This document shows, one piece after another, positions 9,341 through 25,721 of a stretch of DNA of 64,000 nt. Positions within the stretch are counted from its first letter, which is position 1. The number at the start of each line of letters is the position of its first letter. The position numbers and the translations under genes were made by a program. The stretch is from an uncultured Phascolarctobacterium sp. (lineage in GTDB: Bacteria > Bacillota > Negativicutes > Acidaminococcales > Acidaminococcaceae). The stretch lies in NCBI GenBank assembly GCA_949288065.1, contig CASEIL010000002.1, positions 1 through 64,000 on the forward strand, read 5' to 3'. The notes beneath the pieces were generated by a model. The model ran no database searches. It saw only the letters and a list, made by a program, of their open reading frames with translations, and had not been told where the DNA came from.

Positions 9341-9751
9341 ATGATTCGCAGAACAGCAAGAGAACTGGTTGTACAAAGTTTGTTTCAAATAGATTTTTCT
9401 GATTGCAGCGCCGAAGAAGCGCTGAACGCGGCGCTTGAGGAAAAGGCCGATAAAAGCGCCTACAAGGCACAGCCCTACGCCGAAGCTGCCGTTAACGGCA
9501 TTTTAAACGCTTTGGCGGATATCGACGCTAAAATTAAAGAATATTCCATCGACTGGGATTTAAGCCGTATGCCTGCCGTGGACCGCAACATTCTGCGCCT
9601 GGCAGTATACGAGATTTATTTTGCGGAAAACAAAATCCCTGCCGGCATTGCCATTAACGAAGCGGTAGAAATTTCTAAAATTTACGGCTCGGAAGACAGC
9701 CCGCGCTTTATTAACGGCCTGCTTGGCAAAATGGTAAGGAATAATGAATGA
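9341..9751 (+). CDS. nusB: Transcription antitermination factor NusB
   Basis: 136 residues, all-helical NusB. It binds boxA RNA with NusE (S10) to suppress termination in rRNA operons. The N-terminal RRTARELVVQSLFQIDFS and the C-terminal IPAGIAINEAVEISKIYG followed by FINGLLGKM are the family signatures. An ACGAGG-type site precedes it, and its end overlaps the start of the next gene by eight bases, indicating coupled translation. Confidence 0.95.
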   Translation: MIRRTARELVVQSLFQIDFSDCSAEEALNAALEEKADKSAYKAQPYAEAAVNGILNALADIDAKIKEYSIDWDLSRMPAVDRNILRLAVYEIYFAENKIPAGIAINEAVEISKIYGSEDSPRFINGLLGKMVRNNE

Positions 9752-10660
9752 TTTAGAGGTTTACCTTGGCATTGATACCAGCTGCTACACAACCTCCGTG
9801 GCCTTTATGGACAGGTCTGCGCGCCTTGTAGGCGAAAGCAGGCAGATATTAAAGGTGCGCGAGGGTAAGTGCGGCTTGCAGCAGTCGGAAATGGTGTTTC
9901 AGCATACGCGCAACCTGCCGGAGATGGTTCAAAACGCCATGCCGCAGGGCGCAAGGGTTATCGGCGTTTGCGCGTCCGGGTACCCGCGCCCGCTGGAAGG
10001 TTCTTACATGCCGGCGTTTTTAGTTGGCTTGGGCTTTGCCCGTTCGCTGGCAACCATTAACAATATTCCGCTGCATATCATCAGCCATCAGGAAAACCAT
10101 CTTTTAGCAGGCAAATGGTCGGCCGGCGGGCCGGAGGCAGAGCGTTTTTTGCTTTTGCACGCTTCCGGCGGTACAACTGATTTGCTTTTGGCAGAGCAGC
10201 GTGAGGACAGCGGTTACAAACTGACGGAAATCGGCGGCAGCATTGATTTGCACGCCGGTCAGTTTATTGACCGCATCGGCGTAAGCCTTGGTTTGCAGTT
10301 CCCCGCGGGCCCTGCTGTGGAAGAGTTTGCCAAAACAGCGGCGCAAGCCTTAGCGGCCCGGCGACGGCGGCGCTGCGCAAACTGGCTGTCGGTGCAGAAC
10401 CTGCCGGTATTGCGGCGGGCGTGCAAAAGGTGCTTGCCGAAACCTTTTACCGGCTTATTTTTAATGCGGCCAAAGAGTTTAAGGTTAGCAGCGCGCTGAT
10501 TGTCGGCGGCGTTGCTTCCAACACTTACATTCGGGAATACCTGCACGCCAAGCTTGGCAGTAAAAAAATATCGCTCTGGCACCCACAGGCACGCTTTAGC
10601 TGCGACAATGCCTGCGGCTGTGCCGCTTTTGCAGTTTTAAAGGGTGAAAACCGTGTATGA
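9744..10660 (+). pseudogene. M22/TsaD-like (Kae1-fold) protein, frameshifted
   Basis: The first part (9744 to about 10335) encodes an ASKHA-fold M22 protein: GIDTSCYTTSVAF, HISHQENHLLAG-type segment, LLLHASGGTTDLLL and GPAVEEFAK. From about 10336 the family continues in a different frame (NSGASLSGPATAALRKLA, then VGGVASNTYIREYL and FSCDNACGCAAFA) up to the stop at 10660. The original frame instead runs into an arginine-rich nonsense tail ending at 10499. The joint also lacks the roughly 20-30 residues usually found between GPxxE and the SxSGP motif, so a deletion of a few tens of bases with loss of frame fits better than a one-base slip. Family members are paralogues of the tRNA t6A enzyme TsaD, and the position between nusB and xseA is typical of Negativicutes. 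A sequencing or assembly error is possible. Confidence 0.75.
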
Positions 10661-19349: not shown

Positions 19350-19379
19350 CGCGTCACAGATATTTTGCTTTTAAGGTTC

Positions 19380-19408
19380 TTGACAAATCTTTGCCAATGG
19401 TAGATACT
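19380..19408 (+). promoter_or_regulatory. Probable original promoter of the rib operon, now cut off
   Basis: TTGACA (19380-19385) and GATACT (19403-19408) are spaced by 17 bases. It reads straight into the truncated FMN aptamer copy at 19430. Before integration of the mobile element this would have placed the promoter about 20 bases upstream of the riboswitch and ribD. It now points into the element. Confidence 0.55.
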
Positions 19409-19429
19409 TATTGTAGTAATTTAATACAG

Positions 19430-19464
19430 GCCTTTGGGGTAGGGAGCATTTCCCAACCGGCGGT
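19430..19464 (+). repeat. Left attachment repeat (attL): truncated FMN aptamer copy
   Basis: A 35-base segment matches 24454-24488 at 31 positions. GCCTTTGGGGTAGGG is identical, then four bases differ (AGCA here, TTAG at the right), then TTTCCCAACCGGCGGT is identical. It contains the P1 5' strand and P2 hairpin of an FMN riboswitch, but the downstream sequence does not continue as an aptamer. Confidence 0.85.
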
Positions 19465-19757
19465 TGCCTGTCTGAAAATGTTAAACAAGACCAGCACTAT
19501 TAATTAACAGACTGTTGCCGTCTTGTTCCCAAAAGTCAACACTGTAAATCCAGTATACAAGCGGCTTTACAGGCTTTTCAATTTAATATTTTTGTAACTG
19601 AAGTAGTATTGAACTATAAAAAGTTTGATACTACTTTTTGTATTTTATGGCACCCTACCAAGTAGGTTAGTTTATTGATTTTTAATAAGCAATACCCAAC
19701 TATTTATACAAAATATAAGTATTACAAATAATATTAAACTGGAAGGAGGTGTAAAAC
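19465..19757. other. Left non-coding end of the element
   Basis: No gene. It contains an 8-bp inverted repeat AACAAGAC (19484-19491) with GTCTTGTT (19520-19527), the terminator at 19601-19641, and the short dyad CCTAC-CAA-GTAGG (19654-19666). The 7-mer CCCTACC at 19653-19659 is the reverse complement of GGTAGGG in the attachment repeat, so an integrase arm site is conceivable. A GGAAGGAGGTG site precedes the integrase. Confidence 0.4.
19601..19641 (+). terminator. Terminator at the left end of the element
   Basis: AAGTAGTATTGAAC (19601-19614) pairs with GTTTGATACTACTT (19623-19636), a 14-bp stem with two G-T pairs, followed by T-rich sequence. It should stop transcripts entering from the old rib promoter before they reach the integrase. 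Confidence 0.65.
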
Positions 19758-20675
19758 ATGCTGTATTATGAAGCCGTACAAATTTTTTATAGAGATTGTG
19801 TAGGGCGTATGTTGTCGGAGCGTACTATAGAAAACTATTCCGATTATATAACTGGCTTTGGAAATTACCTGCAAAGGGTAAATAAAAGCAATATTGAGGA
19901 TGTTACAAGGGATGATGTATTAGACTACTTTGCTTTTAAGCGTAAAACCTGTTCGGAAACTACAATAAAACATAACTTCATAGCTATCAGAGCGTGTTTC
20001 AAATGCCTTGTAGCCCGTCACATAATACCTATAAACCCTTTGGATGACATACCGAAACCACGAGTGCCCAAAAAGATAATACAATCTTTTAATAGGGAGG
20101 AAGTACAGGCAATACTAAACGCCTTTGATAAAAATACTTTTACAGGGTTTAGAAACTACGCAGTCATGAGCATTTTATTCAGCACAGGTTTAAGAAAAAG
20201 CGAGTTGCTGCAAATGAATGTTTCTGATGTGTATTTAGATATTGACACTATGAAAGTAAACGGAAAGGGCAATAAAGAGCGTTATGTACCCATTAGCCCC
20301 GTATTGCACCGTGTAATTGTTACATACTTAAAAAAGCGTAAAGAATATTTAAAAGAGTGCAAATTAGCCGATAGGGATATATTTATAGTAAGCTGTAGGG
20401 GCGGCAGGTTAACTAAAGGCGGTTTAGGTACTGTATTTGCTAAACTAAAGCAATCTAAAAAACAGTGGGCACACCGTGTATCAGCGCATACATGGCGGCA
20501 CACTTTTGCAAAATTCTTTTTGTTAAACGGCGGCGATATATTCTCATTACAAAAGATATTGGGGCACGAGGATATAGAGAGTACCCGTATTTATATTGAA
20601 CTGACAAAAGAGGAAATACGCCTGCAAAATGACAAATACAATCCATTAGATAACACAAAATGGCAATATTATTAA
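19758..20675 (+). CDS. Tyrosine recombinase (integrase)
   Basis: 305 residues. The N-terminal SAM-like core-binding domain spans about residues 1-100 and the catalytic domain about 110-290. All active-site residues are present: R146 in TGLRKSEL, the lysine in NGKGNKER (about 170-173), H244 and R247 in HTWRH, H270 in ILGHED and the nucleophile Y279 in TRIYIEL. A strong GGAAGGAGGTG site precedes ATG 19758. It resembles XerC/XerD-sized recombinases more than long phage integrases with arm-binding domains. Lying at the left end of an element flanked by direct repeats, it is the obvious enzyme for integration into and excision from the FMN riboswitch. Confidence 0.93.
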   Translation: MLYYEAVQIFYRDCVGRMLSERTIENYSDYITGFGNYLQRVNKSNIEDVTRDDVLDYFAFKRKTCSETTIKHNFIAIRACFKCLVARHIIPINPLDDIPKPRVPKKIIQSFNREEVQAILNAFDKNTFTGFRNYAVMSILFSTGLRKSELLQMNVSDVYLDIDTMKVNGKGNKERYVPISPVLHRVIVTYLKKRKEYLKECKLADRDIFIVSCRGGRLTKGGLGTVFAKLKQSKKQWAHRVSAHTWRHTFAKFFLLNGGDIFSLQKILGHEDIESTRIYIELTKEEIRLQNDKYNPLDNTKWQYY

Positions 20676-20697
20676 ACAATGAAAGAAGGATTTTTAA

Positions 20698-21453
20698 ATG
20701 TTATATTTGAATATTGATATTGAAAAAGAAGTTAATAAATTTCCGCTTAACGAGCGTCCTGTAATGATAACGGTTAACGGTGTAAACATACCACGGTATA
20801 GCTACAATATGATAGATATGCCGAAGGTAGAGCAAAGTTTACAAAACGGTGAATATACCTTTTGCAACATTATAAATGCCGTTGAGAATGAATATTATTT
20901 TACCGCTCGTGAATGTTTTTTAAAGCAAATACAGGAGCATGGTTTATCTGTTAATGAACAGTACAGACTTTTAGGTGAATGTATGGTAGCATTTAGGGCA
21001 ACTTCTGGCGGCAGCGGGGATATGTGCCATGACTTTGCTGTATACAGGGCGGCTCAGATACATAACGCTGAATTAGCTGCGCTGTTATGCAAAGGTACAA
21101 TAAGCGGAATTAATGATGTATACTGTTTAAGCAGTGATAAAAATATACTTTATTACCTTGATGACGGTAAAGATTATGACTGTTGTGTGTTCCGTGCAGA
21201 TTATGAAATTAGAGAATACAGCCGCCAAAACATTGATATTACAGCAAGTGTGTTTGATGAGTTACAGTATAAGTTTGAGGAACTGAGAAAATTTAATACA
21301 TTCGGTGAGTTGGCGCAGGAAGTACCTTTAAATTGCCTTGAAGAATACATACAGGAGGCTTTATGGGGCTATGTAGGCGAAGATAACCCAAATACTACGA
21401 TAAAGGTAGCACCAACAGCAGCACAGTATTTGCGGCATGAGGTACACAGTTAA
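20698..21453 (+). CDS. Unknown 251-residue element protein
   Basis: Not recognised. It starts 23 bases after the integrase with a GAAAGAAGGA site and is likely co-transcribed with it. The protein is acidic and soluble, with no membrane segment or signal. Three parts can be seen: a strand-rich N-terminus (VMITVNGVNIPRYSYN, then EYTFCNIINAVENEYYF), a central segment with a glycine/serine-rich turn followed by a helix (FRATSGGSGDMCHDFAVY), and a C-terminal helical part rich in glutamate (FDELQYKFEELRKF, LEEYIQEALWGYV). Eight or so cysteines are scattered without a metal-binding spacing. Possible roles such as excision, replication or defence are guesses. Confidence 0.75.
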   Translation: MLYLNIDIEKEVNKFPLNERPVMITVNGVNIPRYSYNMIDMPKVEQSLQNGEYTFCNIINAVENEYYFTARECFLKQIQEHGLSVNEQYRLLGECMVAFRATSGGSGDMCHDFAVYRAAQIHNAELAALLCKGTISGINDVYCLSSDKNILYYLDDGKDYDCCVFRADYEIREYSRQNIDITASVFDELQYKFEELRKFNTFGELAQEVPLNCLEEYIQEALWGYVGEDNPNTTIKVAPTAAQYLRHEVHS

Positions 21454-21516
21454 GTTGTGCCCCCCTTGATGTGCACAGTAAAGGCGGCTTTAATACACAA
21501 AGGCAAGGTGAATATA

Positions 21517-21591
21517 ATGCAGCGTTTTAAAAAGTTTGTGTACGAGGTTATAGATAATATTATAGCTATATTGGAATGGCTGAGGTTTTAG
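21517..21591 (+). CDS. Tiny 24-residue ORF
   Basis: ATG 21517 is preceded by AAGGTGAATATA, a good ribosome site at normal spacing. The peptide is short, basic at the N-terminus and amphipathic (MQRFKKFVYEVIDN then IIAILEWLRF). It overlaps the next ORF in another frame. The strong ribosome site is the main support; function unknown, possibly a leader or membrane-active peptide. Confidence 0.4.
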   Translation: MQRFKKFVYEVIDNIIAILEWLRF

Positions 21592-21758
21592 ATTTATACA
21601 TAACTTTTGTGTTGAACCTTTTGGTAAATATTTGTACCATTGCACTGATGTTAAGTACCAATCTTAAAATAAACACAAAAAAGCAAATGGGTACACAAAA
21701 AGCAGGTACAAAGTGCAGTAAAGTTTTGTGTTTTATAGGTAATACAAAAAATCAATAA
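21576..21758 (+). CDS. Possible 60-residue membrane protein
   Basis: One hydrophobic segment (YITFVLNLLVNICTIALML, residues about 8-26) is followed by a basic, polar tail. ATG 21576 lies within the 24-residue ORF in a different frame and lacks a clear ribosome site, so it would need coupled translation. The hydrophobic-then-basic layout is protein-like, but AT-rich DNA gives such segments by chance. Confidence 0.3.
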   Translation: MAEVLDLYITFVLNLLVNICTIALMLSTNLKINTKKQMGTQKAGTKCSKVLCFIGNTKNQ

Positions 21759-22154
21759 CACAATAGTACTTAATGCTGTTTTAGTATTGAGTTATATAGT
21801 AGCTAAGTAGTAACTATGAGTTTACACAAGTTACAGCAAAGGTGTGTTTTATTGATAGTGTTTTATAAAACAGATAAAAATTTAATAAAGGCAGTTTAAT
21901 GGCAACAAAAGTAACCACGGTATACCTGTTGATTTAATAATAACAAGTAAACCGTGGTTTTCTTTTTGTTACCTTTATGTGAATTTAAGGAAGGTTAAAG
22001 TATAATCATTAATAATTATCATTTATCAATCCTTAATTATAAAATTAAAGTAACTTTGTGTTTCTTATATATGTATTATTTATATAAGAAAGTCTGTAGA
22101 AGCAGGCACAGAGCAGGTGTATTTCTAAAAAGGGAAAAAAGCGGGGCTGAAATT
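21759..22154. other. Intergenic region between element genes
   Basis: No convincing gene. It contains the terminator at 21913-21968 and an AT-rich inverted repeat, TTTCTTATATA (22061-22071) with TATATAAGAAA (22081-22091), near the 3' end of the minus-strand helicase gene. Confidence 0.5.
21913..21968 (+). terminator. Terminator for the element's plus-strand genes
   Basis: AACCACGGT (21913-21921) pairs with ACCGTGGTT (21951-21959), followed by TTTCTTTTT. An inner TGTT/AACA pair may extend the stem. Confidence 0.75.
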
Positions 22155-23486
22155 TTACCCTTTTTTGTGTTCCTTTGCTGTATGTAGCCAAGACTTAAAT
22201 TGCATACGCAGGCGGTGTGCAGGTATGTATACGTACACTTTATTTGCACATGCCGTGTTGCGGATACTTGAACGCCACAAAAACTGTATAAAAGCAGATA
22301 AAGCGTACTCTTTTTTATTAACCGTTATGCCTCTTTTAGAAAAGAATGTAACGATATTAGGATTAGGAAATTTATCGCATACAAAAGCAACGGCATTACA
22401 GTTTATAAATTCGTTTGTGGCTCTTGTTGTGAGTGCTATCCAGCGTTTAGGGCTGACACCTCTACCAGTAAGGCAGTTTTTAAAATCCTTAAAGGTAGTC
22501 CAAAAGTAACCTGTAGTTTGCCCTTTGGGTACACCATAACGCAGAAAGCCACGCAAGGCGTTGTGCAGCTTACGGGCAGCAGTACTGTTTTTATTACTAC
22601 AATTCAATCTAAACCAGTTTTTAGATAGTGTGTAATCATCATCAATAAGATTATATTTATCATCATCACAAATAACAATTCTGTCTAATCCTTTTGGGTA
22701 TGCCTCAACAAAACCTGCTGCAATATCGCCGCCGCTGTTGATGTGGTAATACTCAATAGTAAAACCATACAGCCTGCAATAATAATCAAAATAACTCTCA
22801 TGCAGGCGGTATGTGCTGATGTACACATTATCAAAGCAATACCAAATAGAAGGTTTTACCACAGCAATAACCTGTTTATCGTTATTTATACTGTACAGGT
22901 CGAGATTATCAAAGCACTTACGGAAACCTTCAAACAGACCACGCCTGCATCGTCCTGTATATTCTTTATCATCATTCCAATAAAGCTGCCCTGTAGTTTC
23001 ATTCATCAACAAATAACCCTGCGCCCTCAGCATGGCATAGTCCTGCGGATTAAGTTTATTTAATTCCTGTAGTTCCCTGTTGGCAACATTTTTGGGAGTG
23101 TTTTGGTCAATACAATCCAATATTACAGTAGGCTCCTCATCAATAATTAGTGTATATTCGTAATCACCATTAGACAACAAGGCTTTAACTTCGCTGTCAA
23201 AAAGAGTACACAGGGCATGTGTACAGCAGATGTTTTCACCTGCAATGATGAGTTGTTTTAACTCATGCAGTTTTGATGTTCCCTTTTGGTCGCCTAAAGG
23301 CTGCATACAGTTTGTATTGGCACATATCCGCTGTACTTCTGAAAGTAGTGGAGTGAGTACCAAAAAGCGGTTAAAGTTATCGGCAGCAGATTGTGCAGCA
23401 TTTATCATTTTAATTAAAGCTGTTGTCTTTCCTGCGCCTGTTGGGGCGTCAATTACCTTAAAAGCGATATTTTCTTTTGTGTTCAT
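22155..23486 (-). CDS. SF2-type helicase/ATPase of the integrated element
   Basis: 443 residues from the ATG at 23486, chosen because GGAAGGAAAG lies just upstream; the frame is open 26 codons further. Walker A is APTGAGKT (residues 14-21), Walker B is LIIDEEP (113-119, DEE variant of DEAD/DEAH), and a motif VI-like QFLWRSSIRN lies at 401-410, preceded by LTTRATNEF. Together these indicate two RecA-like lobes of a superfamily 2 helicase. The middle, about residues 125-330, is specific and aromatic-rich with no known domain recognised. It faces the integrase operon and is read from the structured right end of the element. A role in the element's replication is plausible; defence is an alternative. 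Confidence 0.75.
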   Translation of the reverse strand: MNTKENIAFKVIDAPTGAGKTTALIKMINAAQSAADNFNRFLVLTPLLSEVQRICANTNCMQPLGDQKGTSKLHELKQLIIAGENICCTHALCTLFDSEVKALLSNGDYEYTLIIDEEPTVILDCIDQNTPKNVANRELQELNKLNPQDYAMLRAQGYLLMNETTGQLYWNDDKEYTGRCRRGLFEGFRKCFDNLDLYSINNDKQVIAVVKPSIWYCFDNVYISTYRLHESYFDYYCRLYGFTIEYYHINSGGDIAAGFVEAYPKGLDRIVICDDDKYNLIDDDYTLSKNWFRLNCSNKNSTAARKLHNALRGFLRYGVPKGQTTGYFWTTFKDFKNCLTGRGVSPKRWIALTTRATNEFINCNAVAFVCDKFPNPNIVTFFSKRGITVNKKEYALSAFIQFLWRSSIRNTACANKVYVYIPAHRLRMQFKSWLHTAKEHKKG

Positions 23487-23544
23487 TTTTCTTTCCTTCC
23501 TTTTCACTACACAAATTTGAAAGAAATGATGTACCTTTCCTTCA

Positions 23545-23585
23545 TAATGTGTGACAGTAAACATTTGTCTACTTATGAGTGACAG
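23545..23585. repeat. Two 13-base direct repeats upstream of the helicase gene
   Basis: TAATGTGTGACAG (23545-23557) and TTATGAGTGACAG (23573-23585) differ at two positions and lie 28 bases apart. They are 60-100 bases upstream of the helicase start, so they could be operators or iterons. Confidence 0.45.
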
Positions 23586-23830
23586 ATAAGGTTATTGTGC
23601 GTTTAAATTCGTTTTAAGCGTGTTTATAAATGAAAGCTTATAAAGTTATACACAAAAGATTTAAAAACGCTTACAGGCGAAATATGGCGGTGATGTATGT
23701 GGCGGCGAAGGGAGAATGTTATAGTATTGCGAGTTTTATGTAAATTATTAATGTTTATTTTATTATATTGATTAAATGGGTAATCAGCGTAGCAATACCA
23801 GTAAAGCAGTTTAACATTAAATATAAAACA

Positions 23831-23890
23831 ACCGCCTTTGCTGTAACTAATAGCACCAATAAGTAAACCAATAGTCAACGGCAAGGCGGC
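23831..23890. other. Long imperfect hairpin in the element
   Basis: ACCGCCTTTGCTGTAACTAA, starting at 23831, pairs with a segment ending at 23890 (CAACGGCAAGGCGGC and bases before it) over about 22 positions with a few mismatches, enclosing a loop of about 15 bases. There is no T run, so a terminator is unlikely. Confidence 0.5.
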
Positions 23891-24093
23891 TGAAAGTAAA
23901 TAAAAATAATAAAATTGATTGTGTATAAAAATATAAACATAAACCTTTGTTTGTATTTTAGCTATGCATAGATGTTGAAGTATGTGTGTAATCTTAAAAA
24001 GTATAATAAAAATAGTACACAAGTTTTCAACAAGTGTACTAAATGGAATTTTATGCAGTTGTTAATGAATAAAAACACAAAATAAAAGCAATA

Positions 24094-24121
24094 ACGTCCG
24101 ATAATAAGGATTATGTTTATC
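24094..24121 (+). other. dif-like XerC/XerD site in the element
   Basis: The 11-base left arm ACGTCCGATAA is identical to that of the chromosomal dif candidate at 49229. The centre is TAAGGA and the right arm TTATGTTTATC shares TTATGT with XerD arms in general. The 11-6-11 layout is that of dif sites. The centre differs from the chromosomal TATATA. Confidence 0.65.
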
Positions 24122-24363
24122 TTGTTTTAACCTCATTTTATGGCAGTTTTCTATAATAAAATAAAAAAGGAAAGCCTGACTATTACATTTGTTATTTACA
24201 GTATAAATAATACAATCCCGTGTGTCAACTTTTGTATCACATATAAAAATTTCAAAATAAAAAACAAAAAGCAGCAAAGTTTTAACAGAGAATTAGAAAC
24301 CAAACGGGGCAATGGGGAAACAATATTATTTCAAAGATATATATAAGGGCAAACGAAAATTTT

Positions 24364-24391
24364 TTGTAAAATTCACTTTTAAAGTTAATAT
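24364..24391 (+). promoter_or_regulatory. Candidate outward promoter supplying the rib operon
   Basis: TTGTAA (24364-24369) and TAATAT (24386-24391) with a 16-base spacer lie inside the element, about 60 bases upstream of the rebuilt FMN aptamer. It would replace the promoter stranded at 19380. Confidence 0.5.
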
Positions 24392-24453
24392 ATTAAATTG
24401 ATAAATGCCTTAAAGTGCGCAAATATGCAGTATTGCTGACTTTTTGGTGTTTA

Positions 24454-24488
24454 GCCTTTGGGGTAGGGTTAGTTTCCCAACCGGCGGT
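24454..24488 (+). repeat. Right attachment repeat (attR), within the intact FMN aptamer
   Basis: Matches 19430-19464 at 31 of 35 positions; the four differing bases (TTAG here) fall in the loop of the P2 hairpin. The repeat ends within the conserved ACCGGCGGT of the aptamer. Confidence 0.85.
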
Positions 24489-24558
24489 ATAGTCCGCGAG
24501 CGTAAGCACGAACCGGTGCAATTCCGGTACCGACAGTATAGTCTGGATGAGAAAAGGC
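24454..24558 (+). ncRNA. FMN riboswitch (RFN element) controlling ribD-ribE-ribBA-ribH
   Basis: Conserved aptamer blocks occur in order: GGGGTAGGG, CCCAACCGGCGGTA, AGTCCGCGAGC, ACCGGTGCAATTCCGGTACC, then CGACAGTATAGTCTGGATGA. The closing stem P1 is GCCTTT (24454-24459) with AAAGGC (24553-24558). A terminator hairpin follows at 24574, so FMN binding should stop transcription before ribD. The 5' part of the aptamer is also the right attachment repeat of the mobile element, so some of these bases were probably supplied by the element. Confidence 0.95.
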
Positions 24559-24573
24559 AGCAAAATGATGTTT

Positions 24574-24612
24574 ACAGCCATAACCCCCGGAGGTTGTGGC
24601 TGTTTTGTTTGT
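24574..24612 (+). terminator. Riboswitch-controlled terminator before ribD
   Basis: ACAGCCA (24574-24580) pairs with TGGCTGT (24597-24603), extended inward by TAACC with GGTTG, loop CCCGGA, followed by TTTTGTTT. It is placed between aptamer and start codon. Confidence 0.85.
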
Positions 24613-24626
24613 AAGAAGGTGAATAT

Positions 24627-25721
24627 ATGGACGATATTAAATTTATGCGGCGCGCGCTGGAACTGGCGCAGCTGGCAGAGGGCGATACCAGCCCGAACCC
24701 GATGGTGGGCGCGGTAATTGTTGATGACGATGGCAATATCGTCGGCGAAGGTTACCACCACAAAGCCGGGCAGCCGCACGCGGAGATTAATGCTTTAGCG
24801 GCGGCAGGCGCAAAGGCGAAGGGCGCAACCATTTACGTTACGCTGGAGCCTTGTTCCCACTATGGCAGGACGGGCCCGTGCTGCGAGGCGCTGATTAAGG
24901 CAGGCGTAAAACGTGTTGTCAGCGCCGTTACCGACCCGAACCCGCTGGTGGCAGGACGCGGTTTAAATCGTCTGCGCGAGGCCGGCATTGAGGTTACGGA
25001 GCACGTTTGCGAGGACGAAGCGCGCAAGTTAAACGAAAAGTTTTTCTTCTGGATTACGCATAAACGCCCGTTTGTATCGCTTAAATACGCCATGACGCTG
25101 GACGGCAGGCTTGCCGCTGCGGGCGGTGATTCCAAGTGGATTACGGGCACGGAAGCACGCACTTACGCACATTATCTGCGTAAAGCGCACGACGCTGTGC
25201 TGGTTGGCAAAAACACCGTGCTGCGCGACGATTGCGAGCTTACCACGCGCATGGTGGAAGGTAAAAATCCTATCCGCATTGTGCTGGACAGCAAGGCAGC
25301 AATTCCGCTGAGTGCCAAAATCTTAAACGGCGAAGCGCAAACAATCATCTGCGTAAGCAAGGGCGCGCCGCAGGAGAAGCTGGCAGCTTTGCAGGGCTTA
25401 AAGAATGTGGAAGTGCTGACGCTGCCGGAAACCGGCGGCAAACTTGATTTGAACGCGCTTATGCAGGAGTTAGCTGCTAAGGAAATAACCAGCGTGCTGG
25501 TGGAAGGCGGCAGCGAGGTGCACGGTGCGTTTATGGACGCCGGGCTTGGCGAAAGAGTGTATGCGTTTATAGCGCCGAAAATTATTGGCGGCGCAAACGC
25601 TATTGGACCGGTAGGCGGCGCAAGCAAAACGGATATGGCGCAGGCGCTGAAGCTGCACGATGTTGATTGCAAACAGCTGGGCGCAGATTTTTTGATTACC
25701 GGCAGAACGGAGCGTGATTGA
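24627..25721 (+). CDS. ribD: Riboflavin biosynthesis deaminase/reductase
   Basis: 364 residues. The N-terminal zinc deaminase (HAEINAL, then PCSHYGRTGPC) and the C-terminal reductase (FVSLKYAMTLDGRLA, then WITGTEARTYAHYLR and VEGGSEVHGAFMDAGL) carry out steps two and three of riboflavin synthesis from GTP. The length is standard. AGAAGGTGAATAT precedes ATG 24627. It is the first gene of the FMN-riboswitch operon, and ribE starts two bases after its stop. Confidence 0.96.
   Translation: MDDIKFMRRALELAQLAEGDTSPNPMVGAVIVDDDGNIVGEGYHHKAGQPHAEINALAAAGAKAKGATIYVTLEPCSHYGRTGPCCEALIKAGVKRVVSAVTDPNPLVAGRGLNRLREAGIEVTEHVCEDEARKLNEKFFFWITHKRPFVSLKYAMTLDGRLAAAGGDSKWITGTEARTYAHYLRKAHDAVLVGKNTVLRDDCELTTRMVEGKNPIRIVLDSKAAIPLSAKILNGEAQTIICVSKGAPQEKLAALQGLKNVEVLTLPETGGKLDLNALMQELAAKEITSVLVEGGSEVHGAFMDAGLGERVYAFIAPKIIGGANAIGPVGGASKTDMAQALKLHDVDCKQLGADFLITGRTERD

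Follow-up and report, generated by a model that had tools for sequence, protein, structure and literature searches.

Tyrosine integrases of the Tn916/CTnDOT type carry an N-terminal arm-binding domain. In CTnDOT, the 7-bp overlap is identical solely at one edge, and the three-domain integrase, IntDOT, uses several att sites. In Xer-dependent phage integration one pair of strands is exchanged, and for Tn6283 an exchange of only one strand pair has reportedly been proposed. Tn916 is described as a conjugative element with many insertion sites and a 6-bp, donor-derived coupling sequence (PMC12084037, PMC5991714). Part of the reason why RNA genes are favoured as integration targets is the resemblance of a palindromic stem with a 7-nt loop to the core site of tyrosine recombinases, as argued in PMC8371274. 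The same source describes the integrase of the archaeal virus SSV1, whose cuts border an overlap that corresponds to the anticodon loop of a tRNA gene. As the TIGER resource is described, 22.8% of its islands are intergenic, and unrecognised riboswitch cases may therefore exist among them. Judged by the titles and the beginnings of abstracts in the open-access literature, we found no report of a riboswitch serving as an attachment site.

Here, we describe such a locus in an uncultured Phascolarctobacterium sp. It lies in a 64,000-nucleotide stretch of DNA, referred to as the window, whose assembly (G000) comprises 1.83 Mb in 44 contigs. The evidence supports well that positions 19445-24468 represent a 5.0-kb integrative element, which resides within the FMN riboswitch preceding ribD and is inserted at the P2 hairpin.

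The element in the ribD leader

The window contains two dyads, GGTAGGG-AGCATTT-CCCAACC at 19438-19458 and GGTAGGG-TTAGTTT-CCCAACC at 24462-24482. With up to two mismatches allowed, the dyad pattern gave four matches (two sites, each on both strands) compared with 0.28 expected, and none of 100 shuffles yielded four. Both dyads are embedded in a direct repeat of 35 nt (attL and attR in Table 1), the copies of which are 89% identical at a spacing of 5,024 bp. They differ solely at four contiguous bases of the 7-nt centre, and the 7-bp arms are complementary at six of seven positions. The comparison of the complete repeats thus confirmed the observation behind the original prediction, that is, a centre reading AGCA in one copy and TTAG in the other between near-inverted arms.

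A covariance model search identified a complete FMN riboswitch at the right copy, well above the gathering cut-off of 66.2 bits (Table 1). The left copy is a truncated hybrid, which scored 15.5 bits over a stretched alignment and thus remained below the RF00050 cut-off. The right end of the element provides the first 15 riboswitch bases, GCCTTTGGGGTAGGG, and thereby re-forms the complete riboswitch on this side. On the left, the host 5' end is joined to element sequence in a hybrid junction. According to the Rfam structure, P2 consists of three GGG/CCC pairs and a 7-nt loop, and this loop is the 7-base middle of the dyad. The original prediction had equated the arms with the P2 stem and the variable bases with its loop. 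The loop assignment stands, but the arms extend beyond the RNA stem, and their outer bases are junction bases.

Table 1. Positions of features at the ribD locus of the window
Feature	Position	Strand	Evidence	Remarks
Native ribD-leader promoter	19380..19408	+	Consensus scan	TTGACA-17-GATACT; element now between promoter and ribD
attL, left att repeat	19430..19464	+	Assigned via empty sites	Host 5' riboswitch half to loop; loop AGCATTT (19445-19451) and right arm from element
Centre AGCA, element (attP) version	19445..19448	+	A at loop position 1 in 0/41 canonical intact loops	
Terminator-like hairpin between attL and int	19600..19637	+	16 pairs, fold z -7.2	Possible insulator
Tyrosine integrase (int), 305 aa	19758..20675	+	PF00589, PF02899, PF13495; phrog_1	Xer-like; SAM-like N domain and catalytic domain
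251-aa protein	20698..21453	+	No family matched	Kept in L034 (81%), weakly in L040
469-aa P-loop helicase-like protein	22155..23564	-	phrog_2467	Common to several related elements
FMN riboswitch re-formed at right junction	24450..24562	+	RF00050, 100.1 bits	
attR, right att repeat	24454..24488	+	Same loop in intact riboswitch of G001	GCCTTTGGGGTAGGG from element; loop TTAGTTT (24469-24475) and arm from host
Centre TTAG, host (attB) version	24469..24472	+	Repeat comparison; intact riboswitch of G001	
Terminator hairpin of ribD leader	24574..24603	+	Consensus scan	Probable riboswitch expression platform
ribD	24627..25721	+	TIGR00326, 415.7 bits	Gene under riboswitch

The integrase gene adjoins the left repeat. 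Models of XerC and XerD (TIGR02224 and TIGR02225) cover most of the protein, with scores of 194.1 and 196.4 bits compared with cut-offs of 335.15 and 329.6. In the integrase, SAM-like and catalytic domains were the only matches above cut-off, with none to an arm-binding domain, and the SAM-like match nearest the N-terminus starts at residue 8 of the 305-aa protein. Family searches with four ORFs of the element revealed no conjugation or capsid genes.

The region around the native promoter (19350-19426) is 96-99% identical in the congeners G002-G005, and the promoter itself now points into the element. A consensus scan revealed no strong promoter at the right element end of the window, which renders the expression of ribD uncertain. 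We also considered that the native promoter simply drives int and rejected this option because a strong terminator-like hairpin intervenes.

A second copy, related integrases, and putatively captured host sequence

The closest integrase (84% identical) is encoded on CASFZG010000004.1 of another uncultured Phascolarctobacterium (genome G003, locus L034), where the same insertion interrupts the FMN riboswitch; the riboswitch on the right side of the insert scores 102.4 bits. The 251-aa protein and the helicase are 81% and 72% identical between the two elements. FMN riboswitches were present in all six genomes of the genus. Four of the five congeners (G001, G002, G004, and G005) have only an uninterrupted copy, and the fifth, G003, has the element. 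The divergence of the element is similar to that of its flanks, which makes a shared ancient insertion with later losses conceivable. A search of 59 family and 380 class genomes yielded no further FMN-type copies, leaving two in all, and viral contigs searched with the integrase, the helicase, and the att pattern gave no matches.

The hairpin between attL and int has a homologue in L034 (z -6.3), in which, by eye, one pair is changed on both sides from A-U to G-C. L034 also contains an ORF of 66 aa (9743-9943, minus strand), which resembles an XRE-type regulator by eye and is without evident counterpart in the window element. The arm motif GGTAGG/CCTACC occurs six times in L034 (7681, 7905, 7939, 11234, 13302, and 13424), five of them near the ends, a count matched by one of 500 shuffles. 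The three copies in the window are not unusual (49 of 500 shuffles). These copies are possible accessory sites of the integrase.

Across the 380 class genomes, 12 integrases from 10 genomes matched at E<=1e-55, and all 12 abut a structured-RNA gene: an FMN riboswitch in two cases, rnpB in two (G000 and G001), and a tRNA gene in eight. The tRNA targets are Gln, Leu, Ser, Ala, Arg, Arg, Gly, and a further Gly gene that, by eye, is cut just after the anticodon loop. The tRNA of L044 was assigned by ARAGORN, the Rfam scan having covered eight of nine loci without L044. Both junctions were read in six of the 12 loci; in the other six, the sequence covered showed no second junction, and several contigs end there. 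The cut gene, tRNA-Gly(CCC), lies beside the integrase at 9690-9735 of L043, and no restored partner was detected on this contig. In a tree of the 12 integrases and four host Xer-like proteins, calculated without L028, the 12 separate with 100/100 support. The two FMN integrases pair with 100/100, and a tRNA-Gln/tRNA-Ser pair forms the nearest group (82/92). Homologues of the helicase occur in four of ten related loci (L037, L040, L103, and L104).

The ends of these elements contain copied sequence of the host target locus. L034 has a degenerate full-length riboswitch at its left end (41.1 bits) and a TTGACA-17-GATACT promoter at its right end, which includes a 14-nt exact match to the host ribD promoter (E 0.003). 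This promoter-bearing stretch is absent from the window element, where the alignment shows a gap. The rnpB elements duplicate the host promoter together with the 5' end of rnpB (99 and 107 bp, identical). The tRNA-Gln element (L037) repeats 98 bp, followed by a decayed version of the neighbouring tRNA gene, of which relatives have an intact copy, and the tRNA-Leu element repeats 124 bp. In all four relatives with both junctions read (two rnpB, tRNA-Gln, and tRNA-Leu), the repeats are fully identical over 98-124 bp. We infer that, across the 12-integrase family, attP arose by capture of a target-locus copy.

Several details of these relatives are recorded here. The decayed gene of L037, downstream of the left tRNA-Gln copy at 9564-9660, is a host tRNA-Glu gene and represents a fossil of the captured flank. 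The rnpB (RNase P RNA) elements are 11 kb in size (L103, G000:C20:6523 and 17943; L104, G001:C6:38627 and 49470), and each has a 43%-identical integrase. Their perfect repeats of 99 and 107 bp include the rnpB promoter. The sole RNase P RNA match in the assembly of the window (G000:C20:17906-18051) spans 146 nt and model positions 1-367; with 78 bits compared with a cut-off of 100, it is either internally deleted to a large extent or misassembled.

The heterologous centre

According to the original prediction, varied centres between invariant arms in other copies would support recombination of the coupling-sequence type. The same pattern, however, is displayed by 43 intact FMN riboswitches without any element, and we therefore rejected it as evidence for recombination. 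The canonical GGG-7-CCC arrangement was present in 41 of the 43; the two non-canonical P2 loops (L088 and L091) were left out of the loop counts. L093, a guessed region that contains no riboswitch, was dropped as well. At least five of seven arm positions are complementary in 39 of the 41 canonical riboswitches, while loop positions 2-6 vary. Position 1 was T in 41/41 loops and position 2 was G or T, and AGCATTT occurred in none of them. A better argument for heterology tolerance is that the arms are kept and only the centre is changed in the element half. The left end of the element is without riboswitch likeness past GGCGGT, yet the 16 bases right of the centre are exact, and TTT at the right edge of the loop is the sole part common to AGCATTT and TTAGTTT. 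Sixteen exact bases with mismatches in the loop only are plausibly what a recombinase that reads the arms and the TTT edge would leave.

The intact riboswitch of G001 has the loop TTAGTTT with CCCAACC, and those of G002, G004, and G005 have TGAAATT with CCCGACC. The right copy of the window equals the G001 sequence through loop and arm. The presence of TTAGTTT in G001 and the absence of AGCATTT from the 41 loops point to TTAG as the host-type (attB) and AGCA as the element-type (attP) centre, which places the crossover at or left of the left edge of the loop. The flanking genes count against TTAG as the host centre: they place G000 nearer to G002-G005 (ribD 81-82%, NUDIX gene 84-86%), and hence to the TGAAATT clade, than to the TTAG-bearing G001 (75% and 76%). 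In L034, the left copy reads TGCAATT-CCCGACC and the right copy TGAAATT-CCCAGCC, and near relatives have TGAAATT-CCCGACC. Only one of seven centre bases differs between its junctions, compared with four of seven in the window. Either half could be the host's because each departs from the sequence of the clade at a different place. The restored riboswitch of G003 (L034 13424-13450) reads CCCAGCC, and the intact riboswitches read in relatives have A at the position of the G. The presumed working copy is thus changed at a junction base that is usually fixed.

We lean slightly towards the reading that the element targets riboswitches, uses the loop as overlap, tolerates partial heterology, and has captured its attP from the host. 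The integrase would likely bind the near-inverted arms GGTAGGG and CCCAACC, and strand exchange would likely span the 7-bp P2 loop, comparable to the action of tRNA-targeting integrases at the 7-nt anticodon loop. It is about equally probable that attP AGCATTT and attB TTAGTTT were, or were not, already unlike at four of seven overlap bases upon integration. If they were, replication would settle the mismatches, and the left repeat would end up with the attP centre and the right repeat with the attB centre. This order, which we observed, is one of two expected after replication of a heteroduplex overlap; it is also expected for a crossover entirely left of the loop. Judging from the family, attP would be an earlier-captured copy of the host target locus. 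It would be retained at positions that restore the RNA or are used by the recombinase, and it would decay at others. The claim of heterologous-overlap recombination gains from a centre that differs between the element and host halves while the arms are kept, and it loses from the low number of FMN-type copies (two), the ambiguity of L034, and the identical repeats of the relatives. For heterology tolerance at the overlap, the balance is close to even.

The most serious alternative, which we consider possible but clearly less probable than the favoured reading, is that the overlap was identical at integration and the left centre changed later, free of selection, which would make heterology tolerance unnecessary. 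The left copy does not form a working riboswitch, L034 contains a decaying left riboswitch copy, and the repeats of the relatives with both ends read are identical, all of which agree with a later change. Drift, however, should also strike the 31 other repeat positions. All four changes form one contiguous block (P = 6.1e-4) inside the loop (P = 6.7e-4 for four randomly placed mismatches among 35 positions, calculated post hoc). Even kept arms with a free centre would still imply that excision is independent of the centre.

A crossover inside an identical block beside the loop, either GCCTTTGGGGTAGGG or the right block CCCAACCGGCGGT, would place the loop difference outside the overlap. The 15 identical bases on the left and 16 on the right suffice for an overlap of 6-8 bp, and the positions of the host and element centres agree with a crossover left of the loop. 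We nevertheless regard this as rather unlikely on the basis of a scan for dyads with inverted 8-base arms and 5-8-base spacers. The loop-centred dyad ranked first or second in attL, attR, and the reconstructed attP and attB of the window as well as in attL of L034, and it was weak in attR of L034, where an arm is changed. No dyad outside the loop region outranked the loop-centred ones in the four att forms of the window, and the loop sits almost centrally in the repeat (15 + 7 + 13). The dyad ranking and the SSV1 parallel favour the P2 loop as the putative overlap.

Exchange of a single strand pair, for which the hairpin or the TTT edge would provide the needed homology and replication would resolve the remainder, appears improbable. 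It would suit a Xer-like enzyme and an overlap with only TTT in common at one edge; the excised form, however, was not seen. That the repeat is an ordinary duplicated piece of riboswitch and not an att site can be set aside as very improbable: dyad arms are indeed intrinsic to FMN riboswitches, as the complementarity counts above show, but the integrase is encoded beside the left repeat, a second genome has the same insertion, and the site is empty in four congeners.

The favoured reading, a riboswitch-targeting element with the loop as overlap, extends the use of structured RNA by kin of tRNA and rnpB integrases to a regulatory RNA and provides a natural way of testing what the integrase reads in the hairpin. 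If loop heterology is tolerated, the integrase family has a clear route to target switching. More speculatively, and in our view doubtful, this Xer-like lineage could use structured-RNA hairpins (tRNA, RNase P RNA, and FMN riboswitch) as core sites, read the arms instead of the loop, and retarget by capturing the whole RNA locus including its promoter. Tolerance of mismatched loops would then permit hops between RNA families, and riboswitch insertion would put the control of a vitamin B2 gene on element-supplied sequence. By eye, P2 (GGG, 7 nt, CCC) resembles the tRNA T-arm, a candidate bridge for retargeting.

Comparison with known systems

The original prediction of a Tn916- or CTnDOT-like enzyme is contradicted by the domains of the integrase, its choice of target, and the gene content of the element, although the enzyme may act like them at the overlap itself. 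As in Tn916, the two ends have different bases between the arms (as described in PMC12084037 and PMC5991714). The insulating terminator described near the left end of Tn916 (PMC11658703) also has a likeness here, where the hairpin could shield the element from the host promoter. Unlike Tn916, the element has a fixed site, a size of 5 kb, no conjugation genes seen, and no arm-binding domain matched. In place of many targets, both copies occupy the same riboswitch, and all ten relatives reside at tRNA genes or rnpB. If the loop is the overlap, its 7 bp with identity at one edge resemble CTnDOT, but a two-domain enzyme here uses one structured-RNA target. XerC and XerD are related at the level of models that match under their cut-offs, and the element integrases form a group apart from the host Xer-like proteins.

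The likeness is closer to SSV1, whose tRNA anticodon loop is replaced here by the P2 loop of a riboswitch, and to the tRNA/tmRNA islands of the Islander type as described in PMC4383910. With the latter, the locus shares a tyrosine integrase, a target RNA gene that is split and restored by element sequence, a displaced fragment marking the other end, and a 7-nt loop with stem arms as the likely core. In agreement with RNA-gene-targeting islands, we found the integrase beside the split RNA gene, the restored copy at the other end, and an uninterrupted site in relatives. The locus departs from the Islander-type islands described there in its target, a metabolite riboswitch, in the restoration of the 5' part by the element, and in a loop that differs between the junctions.
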